A DNA stretch of 54,575 nucleotides from Candidatus Eremiobacterota bacterium. Its GTDB lineage: Bacteria > Vulcanimicrobiota > Vulcanimicrobiia > Vulcanimicrobiales > Vulcanimicrobiaceae. Below the pieces are notes generated by a model that saw only the letters and a program-made list of their open reading frames with translations, was not told where the DNA came from and ran no database searches. A program made the position numbers and the translations under genes. The DNA is taken from the NCBI GenBank assembly GCA_019235885.1, contig JAFAKB010000029.1:1-54575 (forward strand), written 5' to 3'. Shown here piece after piece: positions 17,732 to 49,576 of the stretch; within the stretch, counting starts at the first letter, position 1; each line of letters opens with the position of its first letter.

Positions 17732-20700
17732 ATGAAGTTCTCGCGCACCTACTCCGCCCCCGGCGAACCCTATGCCGGGATCGCCTTCGAGCCGCGCACG
17801 TCGCGGATCGTGAACCCTGACGGCAAGGTCGTTTTCGAGGCCAAGGACGTCCAGATCCCGGCCGGCTGGAGCCAGGTCGCGACCGACATCCTGGCCCAGA
17901 AGTACTTCCGCAAGGCCGGGGTCCCGGACAAGCTGGTTCCGGTGCGCGAAGAGGGGGTGCCCGAGTGGCTGTGGCGCTCGGAGGCCGCCGACGACGCGAC
18001 CTTCGGGAGCGAGACCGACGCCCGCCAGGTCTTTCACCGCCTCGCCGGCTGCTGGACCTACTGGGGCTTCAAGCACGGCTACTTCGACGACGAGTTCGAA
18101 GCCCGCGCCTATTACGACGAGATGTGCGCGATGCTCGCGCTGCAGATCGGAGCGCCTAACTCGCCTCAATGGTTTAATACGGGACTGCATTGGGCGTATG
18201 GGATCTCTGGGCCGGCTCAGGGCCACTATTATGTCGATCCGAAGACCCGTGAACTCGCGGAATCAGCGAACGCGTACGAACACGCGTCAGCGCACGCTTG
18301 TTTTATTCAGAGCGTCAAAGACGATCTGGTCAATGAAGGCGGGATCATGGATCTTTGGGTCCGTGAAGCGCGCATTTTTAAGCACGGGGCCGGCACGGGA
18401 TCCAACTTCTCCAACATTCGCGGCGAAGGCGAGCGTTTGTCCGGAGGCGGTACGAGCTCGGGACTGATGTCGTTTCTGCGTGTTGGTGACCGCGCCGCGG
18501 GCTCGATCAAGAGCGGCGGCACGACTCGCCGCGCCGCGAAGATGGTCGTGTTGAACCTCGATCATCCGGACATCGAGGACTTCATCACATGGAAGGTATC
18601 CGAGGAACAAAAGGTCTCCGATCTCGTCACCGGTTCGATCACGTGCGAGAAATACCTCAATCTCATCATGAAGGCGGCTACCGATGAGTCACTTCCGGAA
18701 AGCGCGCGGCTTGATCCGACGCTTAATCCCGGACTGAAGGCAGCGATTCGGACGGCTCTTTCATTTGGCATTCCGCAAGCGAACGTACAGTATGCGCTGG
18801 ACTTTGCGAAGCAAGGCTACAAAGAGCTTACGATCGAGACGTACGACACGAACTGGGATTCGAAAGCGTACGGCACAGTCTCGGGGCAGAACTCGAACAA
18901 CTCGGTTCGCATTCCGAACGAATTCTTCGCGCGGCTTGACGCGGCGCAGTCATGGGATCTCACTTCGCGCACGACCGGCTCCGTCATAAAGACGGTTCCC
19001 GCCGACGAACTATGGGAGAAGATCGCGGTAGCGGCGTGGCAGTGCGCCGACCCAGGCGTTCAATTCGATACGACGATCAATGAATGGCATACGTGCATTT
19101 CCGATGGACGCATTAATGCAAGTAATCCATGCAGTGAGTACCTTTTTTTGGATGATACTGGATGCAACTTGTCCAGTCTCAATTTGGTCAAATTCCTCGA
19201 CGAAAATGGGCATTTTAGCGCTCGGCGTTTCTCCGAAGCATGCCGCATCTGGACGTTTACGCTCGAGATCACGGTTCTCATGGCGCAATATCCCTCGCGG
19301 GCAATTGCGCAGCGGTCGTTCGACTACCGCACACTCGGTTTAGGGTATGCAAACCTCGGCACGCTGCTGATGCGTCTCGGCCTGCCGTACGACTCCGAGG
19401 AAGGCTTCGGTTGGTGCGCTGCGATCTCGTCACTCATGACAGGCTCCGCGTACAAGACCTCAGCCGAGATTGCTCGCGAAGTGGGACCGTTTCCGGCATA
19501 CGATCGCAATGCCGAGAGCATGGGACGCGTTATGCGCAATCATCGCCGAGCCGCCTACGCCGTTCCAAACGACGAATACGAAGAGCTGACCATTCCGCCG
19601 ACGACGCACGCGCCGACGCTGTTTACGCAGGAGACATGGGCGCTGGCGCGCTCGGCGTGGGACAATGCGCTGGCAATCGGCGAGGTCGCCGGCTACCGCA
19701 ACGCGCAGGTTACCGTAATCGCACCGACCGGATGCCTCGTCGGAGATTCGCTTGTTACGACAGACCGCGGCCTCATGCGGCTGAACCGGCTGGGGAACGT
19801 CGACGGCGAGAAGTGGCAAGACGTTGAGTTCAATGTCTTAACGGATGACGGCGAGCAGCGCGCGACGAAGTTCTTCGTCAACGGCGTGGAGCCGACGCGC
19901 CGAATTACGACGGCGAGCGGCTACGTCATACAAGGCACGCCCACACACCGTATTAAGGTCGTGGACCCCGAAACGCGCGATCTTCGCTGGAAGCGTTTCG
20001 CGGACGTTACAAGCGATGACGTCGTCGCCCTGTCGCTCGGCGCCTTGGCCGGCACGCCTCGGACGGTGAACCTCCCGCCGCTTGGCGAGGAATATTGGAT
20101 CGCGGACTTCACCACCCGTGTCCCTCGCACGATGACGCCCGAACTGGCGGAGCTGGTCGGCTATTTCATGGGCGACGGATCCCTTCATGCGAAAGGCTTG
20201 CGCTTCTGCGTAGCGAGTGGCGATTGGGATGTTCTGTCGCATCTCTCCGACAGCATTCGCACGCTGTTCGGCATCGAGCCAATTTCGACGGACAAGGGCG
20301 GCTATGTCGAATTGGCCGCCAACTCGGTCTCGCTGACGATGTGGTGGGAGGCGTGCGGCTTCGCGAAACACCCGCCGACGTTCGACCATCGCGGCAAGGG
20401 CTACGTCGCACGCGTGCCGGACGCGGTCCTCGCGACAAACGATCCGGCGGTGTACGGCGCGTTCATTCGCGGCGTCTTCGAAGCGGACGGTACCGTGACG
20501 AATGGTGCGGCCTGCTGGTCGACGGTGAACAAGACGTTCTCCGACGACGTGAAGGCGATCATGCTCGCTCTCGGCATCCCGACGAGCACGAAGATCAATA
20601 TTTCCGGTTGGGGCCAGTCTGAGGTCTATGTCGTGCGGGTTCGCAATGCGGCCTATGCCGCTAGTTTCAGCGAGCGAATCGGGTTCATCGGAGCGCGCAA

Positions 20701-22582
20701 GCGCAACGCTGTAACGCCGTGCGATGCGTGGCAAGGCACCAAAGGCGATAGAGTGTACCTTCCCGATTCGTTGGTTCGAAATCTGATCCCTAACGGTAGC
20801 GATCTCTACACACGAACTCAGCTGTATCGCCACCGCCACGATGGCGCGGTTAGCCGAGCCACCGCGACGGCACTTCTCGAGCGCACCGAACACCCGCGTG
20901 TTGCGACCGCGCTCCAATTCTTCTACGACACCGTCGCGACGAACGAGGACGGAGGCGAGCAGCTCACCTACGACCTCTCCGTCCCAGCAAACGTGACCTA
21001 CTTCGCGAACGGCTTTATTTCGCACAACACGATCGGCCTGGTGATGGATTGCGACACCACCGGGATCGAGCCGGACTTCGCCTTGGTGAAGTTCAAGAAG
21101 CTCGCTGGGGGCGGGTATTTCAAGATCGTCAACCAGTCGGTCGAGTCGGCGCTGCGGCGTCTCGGTTATAGCAACGAGCAGATCGCCGCGATCGAGACGT
21201 TTGCCAAGGGAACGAACACGCTTCAGGGAACGCCGCACATCAACAAGGCGACGTTGCGGGCAAAGGGCTTCGACGACGACGCGCTCGCGAAGATCGAAGC
21301 GCAGCTGCCCGGCGCGTTCGAGATCGGCTTCGCCTTCAACCAGCATGTGTTGGGCGAGGAGTTCTGCCGCAACGTGCTCGGCATGACCGACGAACAGCTC
21401 GCCGACTGGAACTTCTCGATCCTGCGCGATGCGCTCGGCTTTACGCAAACGCAGATCGAGGAAGCATCGGACGTGATCTGTGGGCGCATGACGCTTGAGG
21501 GAGCGCCATTCCTGAAGGAAGAGCATCTGCCGGTGTTCGACTGCGCGACCCCATGCGGCAAGCACGGCGCACGGTTTATCCGCCCTCTAGCGCACGTCGA
21601 TATGATGGCCGCAGCGCAGCCGTCGATTTCCGGCGCACTCTCGAAGACAATAAATTTGCCGCAAACGGCGACAATCGCGGACGTAAAAGAAGCCTACCGC
21701 TACGCCTGGGAAAAGATGATCAAGGCGGTCGCGCTCTACCGCGACGGATCGAAGCTCTCGCAGCCGCTCGCGGCCTCGTACGACGTCGGCGGACCGGAAG
21801 AGCTAGAACAGCCGCAGGCCGCGTTCGAAGGGCCGGTTCGGATGGCGGAGCGGCTCGTGTACCGCTACATCGCGAAGCGCCGGCGGATGCCGGATCGTCG
21901 CGGCGGCTACACGCAGAAGGCAATCGTTGGCGGCCACAAAGTCTACCTGCGGACCGGCGAGTACGACGACAAGACGCTCGGCGAGATCTTCATCGACATG
22001 CACAAGGAAGGCGCCGCCTTCCGCAGCCTGATGAACAACTTCGCGATCGCGGTCTCGCTCGGGCTTCAACACGGCGTGCCGCTCGAAGAGTACGTCGACG
22101 CGTTCACCTTCACGCGCTTCGAACCGAACGGACCGGTCGTCGGCCACGCCAACATCAAGATGGCGACGTCGATCCTCGACTACATCTTCCGCGAGCTCGC
22201 CGTGAGCTATCTGGGCCGTTACGACCTCGCGCAGGTGCAGCCGTCCCAGGCCGTCGACGCAATGGGCCCGGACCCGGAATACATCGCTGAAGAACTCGGC
22301 GAAGTGCACTACGTACCAACGCCGGCAATCCCGCCGAAGGCGGGTACGCCGACATCGACGGCGGTCGTCGCGCGAGTTTCGGAACCGGTCGGCGCCGTCG
22401 CTTCGGCGCCGACGCCGGTCGGCACGGTGGCGAAAGGTCAGGCCGTCGCATCAAAGGCGCGCGAGGCGATCGCCAAGGGCTACAGCGGCGACGCCTGCAC
22501 GCAATGCGGCCAGTTCACGCTCGTCCGTAACGGCACGTGCCTGAAGTGCGACAGCTGCGGCGCGACGAGCGGCTGTAGTTAA
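17732..22582 (+). CDS. nrdJ: Vitamin B12-dependent (class II) ribonucleotide reductase with intein
   Basis: NrdJ reduces ribonucleotides to deoxyribonucleotides with adenosylcobalamin and needs no oxygen. The 1616-residue precursor contains a 432-residue intein (residues 668-1099), so the mature enzyme is about 1184 residues. By comparison with the Thermotoga enzyme, Cys467 (NPCSEYLF) should be the thiyl radical residue and Cys190 with Cys478 the redox pair; all three are present and 467/478 are spaced by 11 as expected. The C-terminus carries a CxxC...CxxC zinc-ribbon-like tail ([13 protein letters not shown]) that feeds electrons. Expression is probably under NrdR. Codon use drops to a lower-GC pattern between about 18155 and 19560 and within the intein. 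Confidence 0.97.
19733..21028 (+). mobile_element. Intein with LAGLIDADG homing endonuclease in NrdJ
   Basis: The intein begins at Cys668 directly after VIAPTG and ends at Asn1099 before Thr+1 ([12 protein letters not shown]). The joined extein reads APTG-TIGL, the normal uninterrupted NrdJ sequence. Block A is [10 protein letters not shown], block B is GTPTHRIKV with the TxxH motif, and the C-terminal block is [13 protein letters not shown] with the terminal His-Asn. Two dodecapeptide endonuclease motifs, [11 protein letters not shown] and [11 protein letters not shown], keep their acidic residues, so the homing endonuclease may be active. The frame is uninterrupted throughout. The insertion lies in a conserved active-site loop, as is common for inteins. 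Confidence 0.95.
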
Positions 22583-22653: not shown

Positions 22654-22690
22654 GGGGTTGCCGGATATTCGTCGGCAGCCCCTTCTCCTT
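22654..22690 (+). terminator. Probable terminator of nrdJ
   Basis: A 10-bp stem (GGGGTTGCCG / CGGCAGCCCC, one G-T pair) closes a 9-nt loop and is followed by TTCTCCTT. A second weaker hairpin, CATCAGA / TCTGATG at 22598-22626, lies just upstream. Both sit between the convergent nrdJ and CBASS operons and may stop transcripts from either side. Confidence 0.6.
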
Positions 22691-23546
22691 ATGCGGAAGC
22701 ATGCGAACGTGATTTTGTTCGCGAACGCCGTTCCGCCCAGAGCCGATTGATGCACTCTTGGTGCCGCTCATAGATTCCTGGCGGAAACATTGGTGCGCCC
22801 TCTACGGTCGAATTGTACTCCGTGAGCACTGCTACGATTTCAGGGGACAGTGCGTCACGCTTCGTTACAGCATCCAACCGTAGTAGAAGCTGGTCTAGTC
22901 TGCGCTGCGCGCGATCAAAGGAGATGAGCGCGCCGAACATGTCGGCGACAACGACCACGCTGAACGCTGCCGCAATCGCGCGCACCGCCGACAGTCTTGT
23001 CGGCATGGCCACAGGCACCAAGCCCACTATCGCCGCAATGGTTACGAGGCCTAGTATCCCAAACATTATGGTCGTAAACGTCTTGCTATGGCGCATAAGT
23101 TGGCTAGACCAGAATGCCGATTCTTCCAGCATCTCAACGAGGCGTTCGGCACCCCGCGACGCTCGGGTCGCGTAGTACGCCGGATCCTCATTCGCTTTAC
23201 CCGCCGCCGAAGAAACCGAGAAATCGGTTTCACGCTGTAGACGCTCATTTGGGCGCAGCTGCAGTCCGAGCCCTTCAACGAGCAATGACGCTCGCCGCGC
23301 CCGCTCCGCTCGGTCACGACTGCCTCGATATCGTAGGGCTATCATCGCCCACGCTATAGTTAGGAACAATGATGCCGTTGCAACTATATAAGCGCCTATA
23401 TCATCTCCGACGTACACGGCTATCACTGCTGTAAGCGCGATTAAGCATTGAATGGCGCCGATCGCAAGCAAAAGCCGCGCGGCCCGCGCGAATTCTGCTC
23501 GCTGCATTCCTGTCAGGCGCACTTCCTCTGCGCACCAATCGTCCAT
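22689..23546 (-). CDS. CBASS S-4TM-type membrane effector
   Basis: The 285-residue protein has four hydrophobic helices in two pairs (about residues 24-45, 50-71, 167-190 and 196-218), with a cytoplasmic loop between the pairs and a soluble C-terminal region. This is the layout of SMODS-associated 4TM (S-4TM) effectors, which are thought to disrupt the inner membrane when a CD-NTase product binds them, killing the infected cell. It starts 2 bp after the CD-NTase stop, so it is the last gene of a five-gene CBASS operon. The assignment rests on topology and position, since the family has few fixed motifs. Confidence 0.75.
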   Translation of the reverse strand: MDDWCAEEVRLTGMQRAEFARAARLLLAIGAIQCLIALTAVIAVYVGDDIGAYIVATASLFLTIAWAMIALRYRGSRDRAERARRASLLVEGLGLQLRPNERLQRETDFSVSSAAGKANEDPAYYATRASRGAERLVEMLEESAFWSSQLMRHSKTFTTIMFGILGLVTIAAIVGLVPVAMPTRLSAVRAIAAAFSVVVVADMFGALISFDRAQRRLDQLLLRLDAVTKRDALSPEIVAVLTEYNSTVEGAPMFPPGIYERHQECINRLWAERRSRTKSRSHASA

Positions 23547-23548
23547 TG

Positions 23549-24424
23549 CTATGATTTTGGAAAGAGATCGCCGAACACGGAGCGCCAGATAGACAGGGCC
23601 TCACTAGTCCGGCCCTGTTGGTCCGCGCGAAACGCGTTTGCCGCCTGAATCTCCGCCTGCCGCAGCGCATCGCGTGCCGCCCGGCAGGCAGCGTCGCTCA
23701 TCTCGTCTGATACGTCGGGCCCGAGATGAGCTGGGTCGGGCCAGACCTGCGCAATGCTACATGCGGCAGCCGCAAAGAATCGCCGCACTTCATCTGGATA
23801 GGCGTTAAACGGAGCATCTACGAGCTCGAGCGCCATGACCTCGATGAGAAACGACGGGACTATCGGGCAGCCCGCGTTTCGGTTCCAACCCTTCACCATT
23901 TTGACGAGCGGGACCCAGTTGCCGTCAAGCTCCGCATTCTTTGCCGTGGCGCTCTCAGCGTGGACCTGCGGGTCTGTGTTGATCCAGTTGCCCAGCTTAC
24001 CGTCCGGAATCGAATAATATGACTTCGTTTCGAACGCTGGCACGACGTCAATACTGAGAACGCGGTCGTCTTGTGAACCCGTCGACTGGTCGAACAGGAC
24101 GGTCACACAGCGACGGTCATTCACAACGCTCGAGCGACCATAGACATTTACCAAGCAGTTCTCGACCGCAGTAAGTGTCTCTTGAGGCGGATCCTGTCTT
24201 CGGCCCGCCTCATCCGACCCGAACACGACAAAGACGTCAACGTCCCGCAGCGGCTTCGTCTTGGTATGTCTCGCATACGATCCCGTGAGAAAATCCGTCT
24301 TCACGTCGAACGCCGCCTTCATGCAAGAGCGGACCTCCTGCTGCCGACTGCTTGCGTCGTCTTGCTCGCCTTTGGTGATTTCGAGCCGCTTCTTATATTT
24401 CAGGAATGCTTCATTTACTGTCAT
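23549..24424 (-). CDS. CBASS CD-NTase (cGAS/DncV-like nucleotidyltransferase)
   Basis: The enzyme makes a cyclic oligonucleotide signal on phage infection. The 291-residue protein has the nucleotidyltransferase signature GS (48-49, in FLTGSYAR) followed by DVDVF with D61 and D63, and a third acidic residue D126 in SIDVVPAF; all three metal-binding aspartates are therefore present. A helical OAS1-type C-terminal region follows (WVPLVKMVKGWNR, PSFLIEVMALEL). It overlaps the HORMA gene by 4 bp. HORMA/TRIP13-associated enzymes mostly belong to clades C and D and often make cyclic trinucleotides, but the product here cannot be read from sequence. Confidence 0.93.
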   Translation of the reverse strand: MTVNEAFLKYKKRLEITKGEQDDASSRQQEVRSCMKAAFDVKTDFLTGSYARHTKTKPLRDVDVFVVFGSDEAGRRQDPPQETLTAVENCLVNVYGRSSVVNDRRCVTVLFDQSTGSQDDRVLSIDVVPAFETKSYYSIPDGKLGNWINTDPQVHAESATAKNAELDGNWVPLVKMVKGWNRNAGCPIVPSFLIEVMALELVDAPFNAYPDEVRRFFAAAACSIAQVWPDPAHLGPDVSDEMSDAACRAARDALRQAEIQAANAFRADQQGRTSEALSIWRSVFGDLFPKS

Positions 24425-24930
24425 GTCCGCGACTTCCAGTAGGTAAGACCCGCGGTGATGGCGGGCGAAGCGATGATTGTCCCCGCGGATCGACCAAGCA
24501 TAGCTGAAACAGAACGCAATTCTGCAGGCCCCATCGCTGCTATCTCTGCTCGACCGGCTTCTGCGCTGAGCACAAGGCGATACTTTGCGTTCGCCGGTGG
24601 CAACGTGCTTTTCGCGATCGTTCGCGCGAGATGATCACGATCGAGCCACATGTCGTCCGCAACACCGTTACCATCATACGCGACCGGAATATCCCAACGC
24701 GCTGAGGCTACCGACGCGCCCGGGACATAAAATTCAATCGTAACTGCCGTCAGGTGGCCGCTTTCAAGCCATGTTTTCACAGCTTGGCCGACAATCTTCC
24801 AGTCGTCGAGTAGGGCGTCCGGCTGCAGGCCGAGGCCTTCGATCAGCCGGATTAGAGCCGTCCTCATCGAGTCCGCGACAAAAGTAACGCTGTGCGTTCT
24901 ACTATACGCATAGGTAGCGATCGTAGTCAC
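24421..24930 (-). CDS. CBASS HORMA-domain protein (Cap7-like)
   Basis: The 169-residue protein begins with the pattern common to bacterial HORMA family 1: SRTHSVTFVADSMRTALIRL, then GLQPDALLDDWKIVGQAVKTWLESGHLTAV split over the next helices, then a beta strand and a C-terminal safety-belt-like region ending TAGLTYWKS. In type III CBASS, HORMA proteins sense a phage peptide and switch on the CD-NTase, and TRIP13 resets them. It overlaps both the CD-NTase (4 bp) and the upstream 154-aa gene (4 bp). Confidence 0.8.
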   Translation of the reverse strand: MTTIATYAYSRTHSVTFVADSMRTALIRLIEGLGLQPDALLDDWKIVGQAVKTWLESGHLTAVTIEFYVPGASVASARWDIPVAYDGNGVADDMWLDRDHLARTIAKSTLPPANAKYRLVLSAEAGRAEIAAMGPAELRSVSAMLGRSAGTIIASPAITAGLTYWKSRT

Positions 24931-25391
24931 GCCCTGCTCCAGTCGACATCGAATGCGGTTCCCTTTTGGCCGCCGGCACTCAGTGAGTCCTGAACCTCTG
25001 AAATATCGTCATCTAGCCCGATCGCGATAATGCGAGGCGAACATTCCGCGAACATTCTACTTGCCCACGTTCGGTGCTCCGCGGCACAAGGCACGAAGAC
25101 GTTCCAGTCGCCCGCAGTCGGATTCCATCCCAGCGGCGTTACATCGACGTCCGCTGTGAGAGCGTCGACTCCGTAAGACATATAGATGACCAAACGATGG
25201 CTATCGCCGACCACAGTTAACGGGTGTTCCGAGTAGTAGTCCTCGCTCAGCAGAGCCGACATGATTGGCGCCGCCTTAGAGAGCTGGTCGCTATCATTGG
25301 AGTCGTGCGCGACAAGGAGATCAACGATCGTCGCCCAGACTTCTTCCCCAGAACGCACGGGAAGGGCCGCGACGTCTCTACGCAGCTTCAT
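24927..25391 (-). CDS. Unassigned CBASS operon protein, 154 aa
   Basis: I cannot place this protein in a family. It is soluble, slightly acidic, and appears mixed alpha/beta: an N-terminal helix (RSGEEVWATIVDLLVAH), a strand-rich middle (HRLVIYMSYGVDAL, ADVDVTPLGW, WNVFVP) and a C-terminal IIAIGLDDDISEV. It sits between the TRIP13-like ATPase (14-bp overlap) and the HORMA gene (4-bp overlap), so it belongs to the system. Some type III CBASS operons carry a second, divergent HORMA protein at this place, and that is the leading guess; an adaptor or sensor specific to this subtype is the alternative. Confidence 0.6.
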   Translation of the reverse strand: MKLRRDVAALPVRSGEEVWATIVDLLVAHDSNDSDQLSKAAPIMSALLSEDYYSEHPLTVVGDSHRLVIYMSYGVDALTADVDVTPLGWNPTAGDWNVFVPCAAEHRTWASRMFAECSPRIIAIGLDDDISEVQDSLSAGGQKGTAFDVDWSRA

Positions 25392-26262
25392 GAGTTACCT
25401 CGGTGGTCGCGGCGGCTGAACTACGGATCGACTGAATCACGTCCTGGCTCGTCAACAGTGTGGGATCTTTTGCAACTGCGATCGATTGGGCCATGGCGCC
25501 AAGCACGGCTTTCCGCAGACGACGGCCGTCGAGACCCTCTGACGCCCGACAGTACGCGGGCAACTCGTCCTCGAGCTTCTTCAAATGCGGCCAGCCAGTT
25601 TGAAGCGCGGCCAAAACATCTTTGATGATCTCGAGTCGCGCGTCATAGCCGGGAAGGCCAATGTTTTCAATAAGGTCTGCGCGCGACAGCAGCGCTGAGT
25701 CAACCGCCTCAGAGAAGTTGGTGGTCGCGAGGAATATGACACTACGGTGGCGCCGCGCGATCATATCCATGCCCGCGAGCACGGCGTCAGTCGTGCGATG
25801 GACATCAATGGGATTCGCTTCTAAGCTCAGGCGTCGACGATCGGCGGCGAGCGTCTCGACCTCGTCAAGAAGGACGACCAATGGGCCCACCAGCGCCGCC
25901 TCTACGATCGTCTGCGCGAACAGCTGCGTCGTTTGTTGCTGACTCTTTCCGAGGGCAGCGCTGGCCAAGGCATGTGGATCGACCTGCAGTAGCTGAACGG
26001 TATCCTTCGGAAGCATCCTCGCGACCTGATCAGCGAGGCCGAGAGCGAGGGTCGTCTTACCAGTTCCCGGGGGACCGGTGAGCACGAGCAAGCCGTGCAC
26101 CGGCGCCTGTTCAAACGGAAGCGTACGCCGAAGGTTGAGGCCAACCAACGCGTGGGCGAGGAGCCGCTCCCGCTGATCCGCCCCGATTTTGATCGATCGC
26201 CAGTAGCCGGCGTACTCGTCGCGCGGCAACCGTTCTGCGGGTGAAGCCGATCGCGAGCTCAT
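25378..26262 (-). CDS. CBASS TRIP13/Pch2-like AAA+ ATPase (Cap6-like)
   Basis: The 294-residue AAA+ protein has Walker A GPPGTGKT (63-70), Walker B VVLLDEVETLA (D133, E134), sensor 1 VIFLATTNFSEAVD and an arginine-containing segment LLSRADLIENIGLPG typical of TRIP13/Pch2. In type III CBASS this ATPase remodels the HORMA protein and turns the alarm off. I chose the ATG at 26262 (MSSRSASPAERL); the frame is open further upstream to 26451, but that part is not family-like. It is the first gene of the CBASS operon. Confidence 0.88.
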   Translation of the reverse strand: MSSRSASPAERLPRDEYAGYWRSIKIGADQRERLLAHALVGLNLRRTLPFEQAPVHGLLVLTGPPGTGKTTLALGLADQVARMLPKDTVQLLQVDPHALASAALGKSQQQTTQLFAQTIVEAALVGPLVVLLDEVETLAADRRRLSLEANPIDVHRTTDAVLAGMDMIARRHRSVIFLATTNFSEAVDSALLSRADLIENIGLPGYDARLEIIKDVLAALQTGWPHLKKLEDELPAYCRASEGLDGRRLRKAVLGAMAQSIAVAKDPTLLTSQDVIQSIRSSAAATTEVTHEAA

Positions 26263-26801
26263 CGGCGCTTGCCTACGAAACGCAGAGATATGAGAGCCTT
26301 GATCGCCGAGCGCGTCGACATGCGCACCGTCTCCGTCTCCGCACTTCGTACGTGCGGACTCGTTCGCTTCCACAAGAAGCGCCTCGTTACCTCTACATAT
26401 AGTAGGCCTCGTTGCAGATTCCCACAATATATAGGACCAACAAATTATCATGCCATGTGGGCGTGCCAGATGCCTGGCACCTTGCTAGCAACCTAGCGCC
26501 AGCTTAGGAATGCGCGGGCTCTGACATCGCGCTGGCTCGATCGGACTATCGGACGCGATGAAGGTGGATGCCGCTCCTAGCTACCGAGGCGGCCGAAGCG
26601 CCTCCCGTTGCGCAGCGCTTTGTCATCACCAAGCGTCATGATTTTTGCTCTGCTAACGAACGCGCGTTCCGTGTCGCGCTCGCATTGGTCCATCGCGGGA
26701 AAAGGCGCTTTGGGAGATCGGGGTGCGGACCACCTCGACACCCAAAATCATCTCGCACATCGAAAGATACATTGCGGTTCGCATTAACGAACGAGTTGGC
26801 T
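26263..26801. other. Intergenic stretch upstream of CBASS operon
   Basis: About 540 bp without a convincing gene. Its base composition is lower in GC than the chromosome average. The only signal I see is the possible minus-strand promoter at 26399-26427. No inverted repeats of an insertion sequence, tRNA or integrase gene were recognised here. Confidence 0.5.
26399..26427 (-). promoter_or_regulatory. Possible CBASS operon promoter
   Basis: Reading the minus strand, TTGTGG (26427-26422) and TACTAT (26404-26399) are 17 bp apart, each matching 4 of 6 consensus bases. The spacing and the AT-rich setting are right, and the ATPase start lies about 137 bp downstream. The match is only moderate. Confidence 0.3.
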
Positions 26802-45397: not shown

Positions 45398-45452
45398 CCC
45401 GGACCTGACGAACCTTTGCCATGCGAGGGTACCGCAAAGAACGGGGTGACTC

Positions 45453-48179
45453 ATGCTATTGGACGCCGCTATCAACGTTTTCGTCAAGCCTTCAACTACG
45501 GGCCGCGGTTACGTCCTCCGGACCGACGACGAAGCGGAATCTCTCGGCACCTTACATTTCGATCGAGAGCAGCATGATCCAAACAAGCTCACGACGCTGG
45601 ACCCATACGAGTATGGTCTGAACGATCCGGATCTCTCCCGAATCGGTCCCCACCGGCAAGTCAATCTCTACCTGCCAAACGACCCGGTGGCATGCCTTGA
45701 CTGGGAACGGCTCAGTCCAGGCAACGTCGTTCGCCGAATACGCGGTGTACCGGGGACCTGGGCCGAGCCGGTCCATGCGCCTCTTCGGGTGGGCGTCCTG
45801 TCGACTCAGCGCCATCGGCCGAGTTTAGAGGCAGCGGAGCTCGTCAAGGAGTTTCTCCCGCCCGAAGGCGTCGAACTGGAATGGTTGGACGCCTTGGACT
45901 GGCCCGCCCTCCGCCGCGCCCTCGAGGGAGGACGTTTCGACGTCGTCCACCTCATGCTCGACGCTGCGCTCAAAAAGGACATGCCGTGCGTGCTCATCGG
46001 CGGCACGAGCGTTTCGTTACGGGACGTCGTGCACGCGATCGCGACTCGCAGCACGCGGTTCGCGATTCTCGACGACGACGCGGAGGACCGCACCGAGTCG
46101 ATGGCGCCGCTGCGCTGGGGGGCACAAAGCTTACCCCCCAGCTCCCACACCTCGCTCCTGCTACGATCGGGCGGCTCGCCGTCCGGGACCGAAGCTGCTG
46201 TCGGCGAGGTCTACCGCGGGTTGTTCCGTGACGAGACGCTTACCGTTGCAGCACCCGCGCTTGCGAATGGGACGGAGAGCATCATCGGGTCGAGCGACAG
46301 AGAACCCGGTCTCGAGCTCGCCCAAGCCACCGAACTCGCTGACCGGCGAATCTTCCAGCTTGCCGCGGACATCAAGCGCTACGACCCCGATGCCTCTATT
46401 GCAACGAATGTCCAGACAGCCGTAATGGAGCCGAAGACGTGTTACGGCGAGCTACTACTGAAAGAAGACACCGGTGAGGCTCTGAAGACCGCTCTCCGCG
46501 AGATCGAGAGCCAGCACGCGCACGAGGCGGACGCGTCCGACAAGCGCTATCCCGTCGTTTCGTTCTACCACCCCGGCGGCGTCGCGGTGCTTCCGTCGGA
46601 GACGCTCTGGAAAAAAGACACACTGGAACTGCATTTCTGGCTCGACGTGGTGCCGGGCGGAATTCTTTCACGTTCGATGCCGGCGCCCTCGATAGTCTCC
46701 CGCCTTCCGTATCCTCTTGACTTCGACGTTCTGGTCTGGTCCGAGCACGTCCGCTTCACGAGAGACAGCGCGCCGCTGAGGTTGCACGCAACCGGTCCGA
46801 CGGAGCACGCGGTGTTTCCCGTCGAGGCGCTTCCCGACGCGCCCGGCCGAGCCATCGTCTTCCTATTCATGATGTACGACACCGCGCTTGTAGGAGCGTT
46901 CAGAATCGACGTCGCCGTGAACACGCAGCCCCCATTCGGCGAGGACGCGCAGACGCTGGAATACGCCTACCTTTCGAACGAGTGGTTCAACTTCGAAGAG
47001 GCGCCCGGAACCAGCGCGCTGACGATTTTCGTCGATAAACGGCCCGAAGGGCTCTCGATCTTCGGTCTTGCGCCGAAACAGCGACCGTGGTATGCGCTTT
47101 CGGTGACCGAGTCAGACCTGTACGCACAGGATAAAGGGTTCTATAGAGCACTGCAGCTGCTCGCGCACGAAGCCGAAGCCGCGGAGCGAAATGATACTTC
47201 GTTCACCATCGCCGCTCATGGCACGAAGCTGGCGCAACTTGGGCGCGAGATGTTTGGTCTGCTGTTCTATCAAGCAATCACTACCGACTTAATCAAGTTC
47301 CACGAGAACTGCGTTGAACCGCTCCCCGACGGTTCGGCGCTGACGATCGCGCTAAGCAAGAATTGCGAGGCCGTCACCGTTCCGTGGGGCTTGCTGTACG
47401 ATATGCCACCGCCGGTGGACTACTTTGACGCGTCAACGCTGCGCGGTTTCTGGGGGTACCGCTTTAACTTGACCGTTCGACCGCACGTGGCGCGCAGCGG
47501 CAGCGCGTCGGCGATGCTGCCGGTGCGAATGGGGTCCGCCTGGCTGATACATACGGAAACCAAGCGTCTGGCGGAGGCGCTGCAGCCGATGGTCGACGCG
47601 AATCAGCTTCGTATCGAGCCAATGCAGGTCGTCGACCATGCGCTCCCGGACCTGGCGACGGGGAACTACGACTTGATCCAGTTCTACTGCCACGGGTACA
47701 CGAAGATCCCGAACCTCTTCTCGCCCGAGGAAACGAATCGACTGCGAGAAACCTATCAGCGCGACGCGACCCAGGAGGATCGGCCGTTTCTGATGGTGTC
47801 AGCGAGCGCGATGGACTCGCTCATCGAGATGGCAGGCGGCACCGTCACTCTCACGGAGCTCGCGTACGGGCTCAAGGACGAGCTTCGCAAGGCGCCGATC
47901 ATCCTGCTCAGCATGTGTGGGTCGGCGCAGTTCACCTCGTCCGGAACCGGTTTCGTCCCGCTCTTCCTTCGGCGCGGCGCGCGCGCCGTCATCGGCACTG
48001 AGGGCCCCACACTGTGGACGCTCGCGCGAGAGATGGATACCGAGATCATTCGGCGGCTGCTCGCGGGACAGACGATCGGACGAGCGTTTTACGAGACGCG
48101 TCGGGAGTTTGCGCGGACACATGCACTCGCACTGATCTACACGCTGTACGGAGACGCCGAGGCGAAACTGGTCGCTTGA
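45453..48179 (+). CDS. CHAT-domain protease with degenerate N-terminal CHAT-like domain
   Basis: The 908-residue protein ends in a CHAT (caspase-like) peptidase domain. The catalytic histidine is His747 in QFYCHGYTK and the cysteine is Cys822 in LLSMCGSAQF; FVPLFLRRGARAVIGTEGPT and a closing TLYGDAEAKLVA are typical. An N-terminal region (about 105-215) has a similar strand order, LRVGVLSTQRHRPSLEAAEL then RFDVVHLMLDAA, but lacks the His, so it looks like an inactive copy. The ~400 residues between them are beta-rich and unassigned. No signal peptide is seen, so it is cytosolic. GGGG 6 bp before the ATG may be the ribosome site. CHAT proteases often act in defence or programmed cell death. 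Confidence 0.85.
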   Translation: MLLDAAINVFVKPSTTGRGYVLRTDDEAESLGTLHFDREQHDPNKLTTLDPYEYGLNDPDLSRIGPHRQVNLYLPNDPVACLDWERLSPGNVVRRIRGVPGTWAEPVHAPLRVGVLSTQRHRPSLEAAELVKEFLPPEGVELEWLDALDWPALRRALEGGRFDVVHLMLDAALKKDMPCVLIGGTSVSLRDVVHAIATRSTRFAILDDDAEDRTESMAPLRWGAQSLPPSSHTSLLLRSGGSPSGTEAAVGEVYRGLFRDETLTVAAPALANGTESIIGSSDREPGLELAQATELADRRIFQLAADIKRYDPDASIATNVQTAVMEPKTCYGELLLKEDTGEALKTALREIESQHAHEADASDKRYPVVSFYHPGGVAVLPSETLWKKDTLELHFWLDVVPGGILSRSMPAPSIVSRLPYPLDFDVLVWSEHVRFTRDSAPLRLHATGPTEHAVFPVEALPDAPGRAIVFLFMMYDTALVGAFRIDVAVNTQPPFGEDAQTLEYAYLSNEWFNFEEAPGTSALTIFVDKRPEGLSIFGLAPKQRPWYALSVTESDLYAQDKGFYRALQLLAHEAEAAERNDTSFTIAAHGTKLAQLGREMFGLLFYQAITTDLIKFHENCVEPLPDGSALTIALSKNCEAVTVPWGLLYDMPPPVDYFDASTLRGFWGYRFNLTVRPHVARSGSASAMLPVRMGSAWLIHTETKRLAEALQPMVDANQLRIEPMQVVDHALPDLATGNYDLIQFYCHGYTKIPNLFSPEETNRLRETYQRDATQEDRPFLMVSASAMDSLIEMAGGTVTLTELAYGLKDELRKAPIILLSMCGSAQFTSSGTGFVPLFLRRGARAVIGTEGPTLWTLAREMDTEIIRRLLAGQTIGRAFYETRREFARTHALALIYTLYGDAEAKLVA

Positions 48180-48200
48180 GGATCGCTATGGAGGTCCAGA

Positions 48201-48665
48201 ATGTCTAATCCCACCTTGCAGTTTGGAGTCGACGCTCTCTTCGATCTTTCGGATTCCGAGCTAGAGCTGGAACTCGGACGACGCCTAACGGAAACGCGGG
48301 AGGAGCTCCGCGAAGGAAAAGCCGATCTGAGCGCCGCGCAGCCGGCCGGGCCGACGCCGGATCGCGAGCAGCTCATGTCGTTGCCGAGTTTCGTGCGCGA
48401 TGTCGCTCAGCGCTTCTTGAAAGACTTCGACCACCAGATCTACTCACTCATCTGCGATCCTAACGACGAGGATGGCAAACAACTTCGGCTTGCCGCGGAC
48501 CAGGGTGCGCGCGCTCTCGGTTATGCTCTCGGCGGAGCTTTCATCGCCACCTTCGGGTGGCTTCCGGGAATAGCTACGGTGATCGCCGTTATTCTGGCGC
48601 GACGGATCGCCAAGAGCACGTACACAGCGTTCTGCGGGGCGTACAAGGAGCGTCTGGGCGGCTAA
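48201..48665 (+). CDS. Small membrane protein paired with CHAT protease
   Basis: The 154-residue protein has a strong ribosome site (GGAGG 8 bp before the ATG) and starts 21 bp after the CHAT gene. The first ~55 residues are acidic and charged (LSDSELELELGRRLTETREE), a linker containing PAGPTPD follows, then a helical part and a hydrophobic segment near residues 107-133 (GYALGGAFIATFGWLPG, ATVIAVILA) able to cross or enter a membrane. I recognise no family. The layout of a charged N-terminal part, a linker and a hydrophobic C-terminus would suit a membrane-active protein controlled by cleavage from the neighbouring protease, but that is inference. Confidence 0.7.
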   Translation: MSNPTLQFGVDALFDLSDSELELELGRRLTETREELREGKADLSAAQPAGPTPDREQLMSLPSFVRDVAQRFLKDFDHQIYSLICDPNDEDGKQLRLAADQGARALGYALGGAFIATFGWLPGIATVIAVILARRIAKSTYTAFCGAYKERLGG

Positions 48666-49576
48666 TCCTCCTCGGGCGTCGCAAAGCGTCCCAGCGCATC
48701 GAGCGCCGGGACGAAGTAGTACGCACCCGTCAGCGGCGTCGTGTAGCGCGTCAGCGCGTCGCGCGGGCCGCCGTCCGCGCCGGCCATCTGCTCCAACATC
48801 CGCTGCAAGCGGTGCTGCTCCTTGCTGAACCCGATGAACAGCGTCCCGTGATCGGTGACGGTGCCGTACGGGACGTTGCGCCGGAAGATCGGCAGCTCCT
48901 CGCCACCCTCTTTGAGCGTCGTGCGCGAGACGTGCGAATCGGCCGGCATCGCCGCGCCTTCGAGCTCGATGCTCTCGTCTTTGGTGCGCCCGATGACACG
49001 CTCTTGCGCGAGCTCGGGAAGCGCGTTCCACGCGCCGGTGTCGTGACGCCATTGCTGAAAGAGCAGCACGCTTCCGCCCGCGCCGGGCTGGCTTTCGTCG
49101 ATCAGTGCGACCTCGGCGGCTTCGTAGAGGGTCGGGTTCTCGGTGCCGTCCTCGAAGCCGGTGAGATCGCGGCTGTGCTTGTACGACCAGCCCGTCGCCT
49201 CGCGCACCAGCGACGCGTGCGGCGCCGCCGTCGCGATCGCCGTTTGGCCGAGGTCGAAGACGATGTCGTACGCGGCTGCGGCGACCCACACGAACAGGTC
49301 GGCCTGGGTCGCAGGCATCACGTAGCCGTCAGGTCCGCGCAGATCGTTCTCAAAGCTCGTCACGTTCGCCGGCACGTCGTCCGGCGCAACGCCGCGCCAC
49401 AACTCAGGGCGGAAGCCGACGACCAGGTTCACGCCGCCGACCGTCGTGTGCGGTGGGCGAAGGCTCGCAATCGCGCCGACCAGCCCCGCCGGATCGGCGC
49501 GTGCGTTCAGCGTGAACTCGAAGAACCCGTGCGACGCGTCGCCGAGCGAGAAGATGCCGAATTGCCCCGTCGCCAT
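48662..49576 (-). CDS. Dyp-type peroxidase
   Basis: The 304-residue haem peroxidase has the family signature GFEDGTENP near residue 160, with the distal aspartate, and SHVSRTTLKEGGEEL with the proximal histidine region, followed by FRRNVPYG and LFIGFSKEQHRLQRML. No Tat or Sec signal is visible, so it is cytoplasmic, possibly encapsulin cargo in other species, but no encapsulin gene is present here. Its stop overlaps the end of the convergent small membrane-protein gene by 4 bp. Confidence 0.95.
   Translation of the reverse strand: MATGQFGIFSLGDASHGFFEFTLNARADPAGLVGAIASLRPPHTTVGGVNLVVGFRPELWRGVAPDDVPANVTSFENDLRGPDGYVMPATQADLFVWVAAAAYDIVFDLGQTAIATAAPHASLVREATGWSYKHSRDLTGFEDGTENPTLYEAAEVALIDESQPGAGGSVLLFQQWRHDTGAWNALPELAQERVIGRTKDESIELEGAAMPADSHVSRTTLKEGGEELPIFRRNVPYGTVTDHGTLFIGFSKEQHRLQRMLEQMAGADGGPRDALTRYTTPLTGAYYFVPALDALGRFATPEED

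Follow-up and report, generated by a model that had tools for sequence, protein, structure and literature searches.

The window, a 54,575-nt stretch of a Candidatus Eremiobacterota genome, contains a gene encoding a predicted CHAT protease and, 21 bp downstream on the same strand, a gene encoding a small orphan membrane protein (Table 1). As read from their sequences and context, the two genes point to an undescribed defence or cell-death module in which a protease is coupled to a membrane partner. Related CHAT proteins in Actinomycetota and in one cyanobacterium are likewise encoded beside membrane proteins.

The CHAT gene is preceded by a Shine-Dalgarno-like GGGGTGA with 3 nt before its start codon, and the small gene by a strong Shine-Dalgarno sequence (GGAGGT) with 5 nt before its ATG. 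Downstream, a convergent Dyp-type peroxidase gene shares a few bases with the end of the small gene, and upstream of the CHAT gene lies a divergent zinc-type dehydrogenase gene (both assigned by Pfam), such that the CHAT and small genes form a closed unit. The small gene has a coding-frame pattern of GC content by codon position (GC1 0.675, GC2 0.461, GC3 0.695) that resembles that of the CHAT gene (0.655, 0.457, and 0.754, respectively), and because this is combined with a well-placed GGAGGT, the small open reading frame is unlikely to have arisen by chance. The GC3 of the pair (0.75 and 0.70) is lower than that of most neighbours tested (mostly 0.87–0.95) and leans towards that of the CBASS genes in the window (0.59–0.67). 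This atypical composition suggests lateral acquisition, and the pair is probably foreign DNA; that both genes share it also supports the small reading frame as a real gene acquired together with the CHAT gene. The strong Shine-Dalgarno sequence, convergent downstream gene, and shared GC3 give the pair the appearance of a two-gene unit, and the 154-residue gene, which an earlier note on this DNA had seen 21 bp downstream, is situated and preceded by signals as expected for a partner in an operon.

Two other features of the window deserve mention. A type III CBASS system, located in a low-GC stretch approximately 19 kb from the pair, includes TRIP13 and two HORMA proteins together with an oligonucleotide cyclase and a 4TM effector. 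A class II ribonucleotide reductase gene (1616 codons) is apparently interrupted by an intein, within which Pfam identifies a LAGLIDADG domain.

Table 1. Coordinates of the CHAT/small-gene pair, other features of the window, and related loci elsewhere (locus identifiers precede the coordinates)
Feature	Coordinates	Strand	Basis or remark
Class II ribonucleotide reductase, 1616 aa, with apparent intein	17732–22582	+	Pfam
Type III CBASS	22689–26451	-	
Shine-Dalgarno-like GGGGTGA	45443–45449	+	Read from sequence
CHAT protease gene, 908 aa	45453–48179	+	Open reading frame; Pfam CHAT; relatives
N-terminal region, residues 1–365, lineage-specific, possibly alpha/beta, candidate sensor	45453–46547	+	Aligns only with the G034 protein
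Shared core, residues 366–908: putative beta-sandwich, FWG motif, CHAT	46548–48176	+	Seven-protein alignment; HMM scores
CHAT domain, residues 704–890	47562–48122	+	PF12770, 45.7 bits
Catalytic His747 codon	47691–47693	+	Sequence; invariant in core alignment
Catalytic Cys822 codon	47916–47918	+	Sequence; invariant in core alignment
Shine-Dalgarno GGAGGT	48190–48195	+	Read from sequence
Small membrane-protein gene, 154 aa, orphan	48201–48665	+	Open reading frame; no Pfam or NCBIfam match; coding-like GC by position
Hydrophobic stretch, residues 105–138, glycine-rich, central GWLPG break	48513–48614	+	Hydropathy; low-confidence model
Dyp-type peroxidase	48662–49576	-	Pfam
G034 4-TM protein	L042:3019–3588		
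SAVED-HNH-type endonuclease of G034	L042:8223–9266		PADLOC, E = 7e-33
G008 relative of the G034 4-TM protein	L063:5752–6315		
Glycine-rich 3-TM family loci	L053:6098–6418; L055:6104–6460; L052:6382–6891; L060:8520–8930; L059:6983–7315		

CHAT domains are caspase-related peptidases. The 908-residue protein matches PF12770 well above the curated cut-off (24 bits), and the proposed catalytic residues lie in the motifs YCHG (His747) and SMCG (Cys822), both residues being invariant in seven of seven aligned cores from different phyla. It is thus a genuine CHAT protein and a predicted protease, as had been proposed from its intact dyad. No Pfam match was found in residues 1–365, for which a single-sequence structure model starts beta-alpha-beta-alpha-beta at low confidence (pLDDT 40). 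A stretch reading FDVVHL hinted at a degenerate CHAT domain in this region, and this was unsupported by profile comparison and by shuffles. For the first part of the core, 'beta-sandwich' is our reading of an alternating hydrophobic pattern rather than the output of a tool.

Relatives of the CHAT protein are sparse within the phylum, where the family occurs in two of 149 genomes, that of the window included. The other (G034) belongs to the same family of bacteria and encodes a protein of 1013 residues with a local match of E ~1e-7 over 97 residues; most of its length can be aligned, with 27% identity. Neither window protein recovered relatives by tblastn of plasmids, or close relatives when genome and viral collections were scanned with peptide patterns. 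Using the G034 protein as the tblastn query, plasmid-borne relatives were identified in Streptomyces, Rhodococcus, and Calothrix. Seven cores, from Actinomycetota, one cyanobacterium, and the two genomes of the window's family, align over about 540 residues and share an invariant FWG motif as well as the dyad. An HMM of this alignment scores its members, a fragment included, at 168 bits or more and other CHAT proteins at hand at 39 or less, the member scores being high by construction since the model was built from the same seven. The N-terminal parts vary from locus to locus and include leucine-rich repeats (LRR) in Rhodococcus.

The small protein is acidic over residues 1–100 (21 D/E versus 11 K/R) and basic at its C-terminal end, and a single segment exceeds a Kyte-Doolittle score of 1.6 (residues 114–132, 2.12), in keeping with the charged N-terminal part and C-terminal hydrophobic segment noted earlier. 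A single-sequence model includes helices at residues 18–37, 90–118, and 122–153 among others, and because its mean pLDDT is only 47, the stretch at residues 105–138 could represent either one transmembrane (TM) segment or a short helical hairpin. The protein belongs to no recognised family, as was also suspected from its sequence: no match was found in Pfam (E ≤ 1), in NCBIfam, to EACC1 (PF19953), or among sequences of solved structures, gasdermins included. Searches of its own genome returned only itself, searches of the 149 genomes of the phylum returned no relative, and peptide patterns were absent from 84,980 species genomes, a scan sensitive only to close relatives. Weak matches within the phylum (three alignments inspected) correspond to parts of unrelated larger frames that lack a matching hydrophobic segment. 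PADLOC gave a match to PDC-M35B below significance (E = 0.0097; residues 69–150 against positions 62–145 of 149), which was not confirmed, and no firm PDC-M35 member was found in the phylum. With no relatives of the small protein, the pairing in the window is a single case.

A membrane-protein gene is adjacent to the core CHAT gene or in the same operon in all seven intact loci counted, including the window and leaving aside a fragmentary Rhodococcus opacus copy between transposases, although membrane-protein neighbours are common in general. The partners fall into four groups without detectable mutual homology. In G034 a 189-residue multi-TM (4-TM) protein is encoded upstream, in tandem; in a Rhodococcus aetherivorans plasmid a 106-residue protein follows ~18 bp downstream; in Streptomyces NBC_00989 a 118-residue protein follows ~3 bp downstream; and in Streptomyces Alt3 a 169-residue protein is encoded convergently ~20 bp away. 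A 136-residue membrane protein heads the operon of a Streptomyces ADI95-16 plasmid (L060) that includes two CHAT genes. Downstream of the Calothrix PCC 7716 core is a gene for a 560-residue membrane protein in which a long stretch separates the first hydrophobic segment from the second, and upstream is a second large gene whose product has a TPR-CHAT-like end, as judged by eye.

The co-occurrence in unrelated genomes that the earlier note had proposed to look for is seen for the pattern of a CHAT gene beside a membrane-protein gene, whereas the 154-residue protein itself was found nowhere else. The nearest CHAT homologue, that of G034, is accompanied by a different membrane protein, encoded on the other side. 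The G034 4-TM protein is not an obligate CHAT partner, because a relative in another genome (G008) stands alone without a CHAT gene, and the single-case associations of the window and G034 are weakened further by how common membrane-protein neighbours are. Proximity to defence genes, which the earlier note had also proposed to check, is seen at some loci: a SAVED-HNH-type endonuclease gene is 1.5 kb past the CHAT gene in G034, and an AbiGi-family gene is near the core locus of NBC_00989. Separately, the Agrobacterium plasmid pTiCFBP5877 (L058) has three CHAT genes clustered with two TIR-domain genes, a metallophosphoesterase gene, and a caspase-family gene.

The four small proteins encoded at the actinobacterial core loci constitute a single glycine-rich family with about three TM segments, and a fifth member is encoded beside a TPR-CHAT gene in Nonomuraea. 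When plasmids were searched with this family's own sequence, six records were recovered and a CHAT gene lies beside it in all six, two of which (Streptomyces Alt3 and NBC_01201) are apparently near-identical copies; such co-occurrence is not expected by chance. As only this family was searched independently of CHAT and gave several matches, its association with CHAT is strong and that of the window and G034 partners suggestive. Its members pair with three CHAT classes; their middle segment is rich in glycine, and their C-terminal tail is variable and of low complexity. Those compared with EACC1 (PF19953) do not match it, and the family has no homology with the window small protein. In the ADI95-16 operon, a 3-TM protein, a CHAT protein (1020 residues), a 477-residue protein, and a core CHAT protein (967 residues) are encoded in that order, bringing two CHAT classes together. 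In Actinomycetota the small partner is constant while the CHAT N-terminus changes, as expected for one output read by many sensors. The family, as found beside CHAT genes, is apparently undescribed.

Several known systems resemble the pair in part. In bacterial gasdermin-protease operons a caspase-like protease is also encoded beside a protein presumed to target membranes, but the small window protein has only 154 residues and a hydrophobic helical C-terminus, and Pfam gives it no gasdermin match. Borvo, unlike the pair, consists of a single gene, and its BovA, which we take to be a CHAT-domain protein, has a weak similarity to the window CHAT protein (PADLOC, E = 0.012) that is confined to some 45 residues in the CHAT region (805–849) rather than full-length. 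The type III-E CRISPR TPR-CHAT protease Csx29, once activated by target RNA, cleaves a partner protein (PMC10028731). The window pair shares with Csx29-Csx30 a CHAT protease encoded beside a possible substrate, but Pfam detects no TPR in the window protein, and neither Pfam nor PADLOC identified a gRAMP or other CRISPR effector among the neighbours. Csx30, moreover, is presumably not a membrane protein, unlike the small protein in the window.

The closest parallel in working is the EACC1-caspase two-gene conflict system described by Kaur et al. 2020 (PMC7159879), which likewise comprises a caspase-superfamily peptidase, fused to variable domains, together with a small membrane protein whose TM segment is rich in small residues. 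It differs from the window pair in gene order (EACC1 systems have the small membrane gene first, the window the protease gene) and in architecture (an N-terminal caspase with variable C-termini versus a C-terminal CHAT domain); furthermore, neither the small protein nor anything else in the genome has an above-cut-off PF19953 match. By sequence the pair thus falls outside these systems while resembling them. As an arrangement of this general kind has thus been published, the earlier note's view that the window pair, if conserved, would be a new arrangement was too strong, although no account of a CHAT core with a small membrane protein as its partner was found in the literature covered (bioRxiv and most subscription papers lay outside its scope).

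We tentatively favour, at somewhat less than even confidence, the reading that the membrane partner is the effector of a sensor-protease in a laterally acquired two-gene conflict module. A cytoplasmic CHAT protein would act as the sensor-protease, its lineage-specific N-terminal region (the putative sensor) controlling the conserved core with its intact Cys-His dyad. On a trigger that is probably phage infection or some other invasion of the cell, the protease would cut the co-expressed small membrane protein or alter its state; the hydrophobic, Gly-rich C-terminus of the latter would then permeabilise, perhaps by pore formation, or depolarise the membrane, leading to dormancy or death of the cell. 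Variable N-termini attached to one catalytic core with a small membrane neighbour fit a sensor-protease with a membrane output, and we infer a defence role from domain content, the patchy distribution in the phylum, the lateral signature, and the defence-gene neighbours in G034 and NBC_00989. Proteolytic activation is not obvious for the 3-TM proteins, as they are not evidently autoinhibited.

Alternatively, the small protein may recruit or activate the CHAT protease as its anchor or sensor in the membrane, and the protease would then cut itself or other cell proteins. The same logic has been proposed for EACC1, with its Gly-patched TM segment, as anchor or sensor of its caspase (PMC7159879), and it finds some accord in the Gly-rich middle segment and variable tail of the 3-TM family, in the service of that single constant partner to three CHAT classes, and in the long inter-segment stretch of the Calothrix partner, which is more receptor-like than toxin-like. 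However, the window protein, with a soluble part of about 100 residues and a single hydrophobic stretch, is not obviously a receptor and has no EACC1 match, and we consider such a role a serious but on the whole unlikely alternative. It is improbable that the two genes are chance neighbours, or that they form a housekeeping pair functioning in non-defence regulation; the exact pair is seen only once, the small protein is without relatives, and another gene lies beside the nearest CHAT relative, but the 21-bp spacing, strong Shine-Dalgarno sequence, and shared atypical GC3 argue against this, as does the recurrence of small membrane neighbours in other phyla. Decidedly improbable is a toxin-antitoxin-like inhibitor or immunity protein keeping the protease inactive, with a membrane segment for localisation only, for although the genes are tightly paired with the small gene second and the N-terminal part of its product is acidic, partners at other loci are mostly hydrophobic with little soluble domain for protease inhibition.

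Extended across phyla, the reading of the membrane partner as effector would describe a class in which one sensor-protease core (beta-sandwich and CHAT) is combined with swappable, non-homologous small membrane outputs, that of the window being entirely new; we regard this as possible, though short of an even chance. Cell death is believed to be set off by bacterial caspase-like proteases, yet apart from gasdermins few membrane outputs of these enzymes are known. Should CHAT cores regularly pair with small membrane proteins, the neighbouring gene would provide a testable substrate or partner for many unassigned CHAT proteins, the glycine-rich 3-TM family encoded beside CHAT genes in Actinomycetota being among such neighbours.
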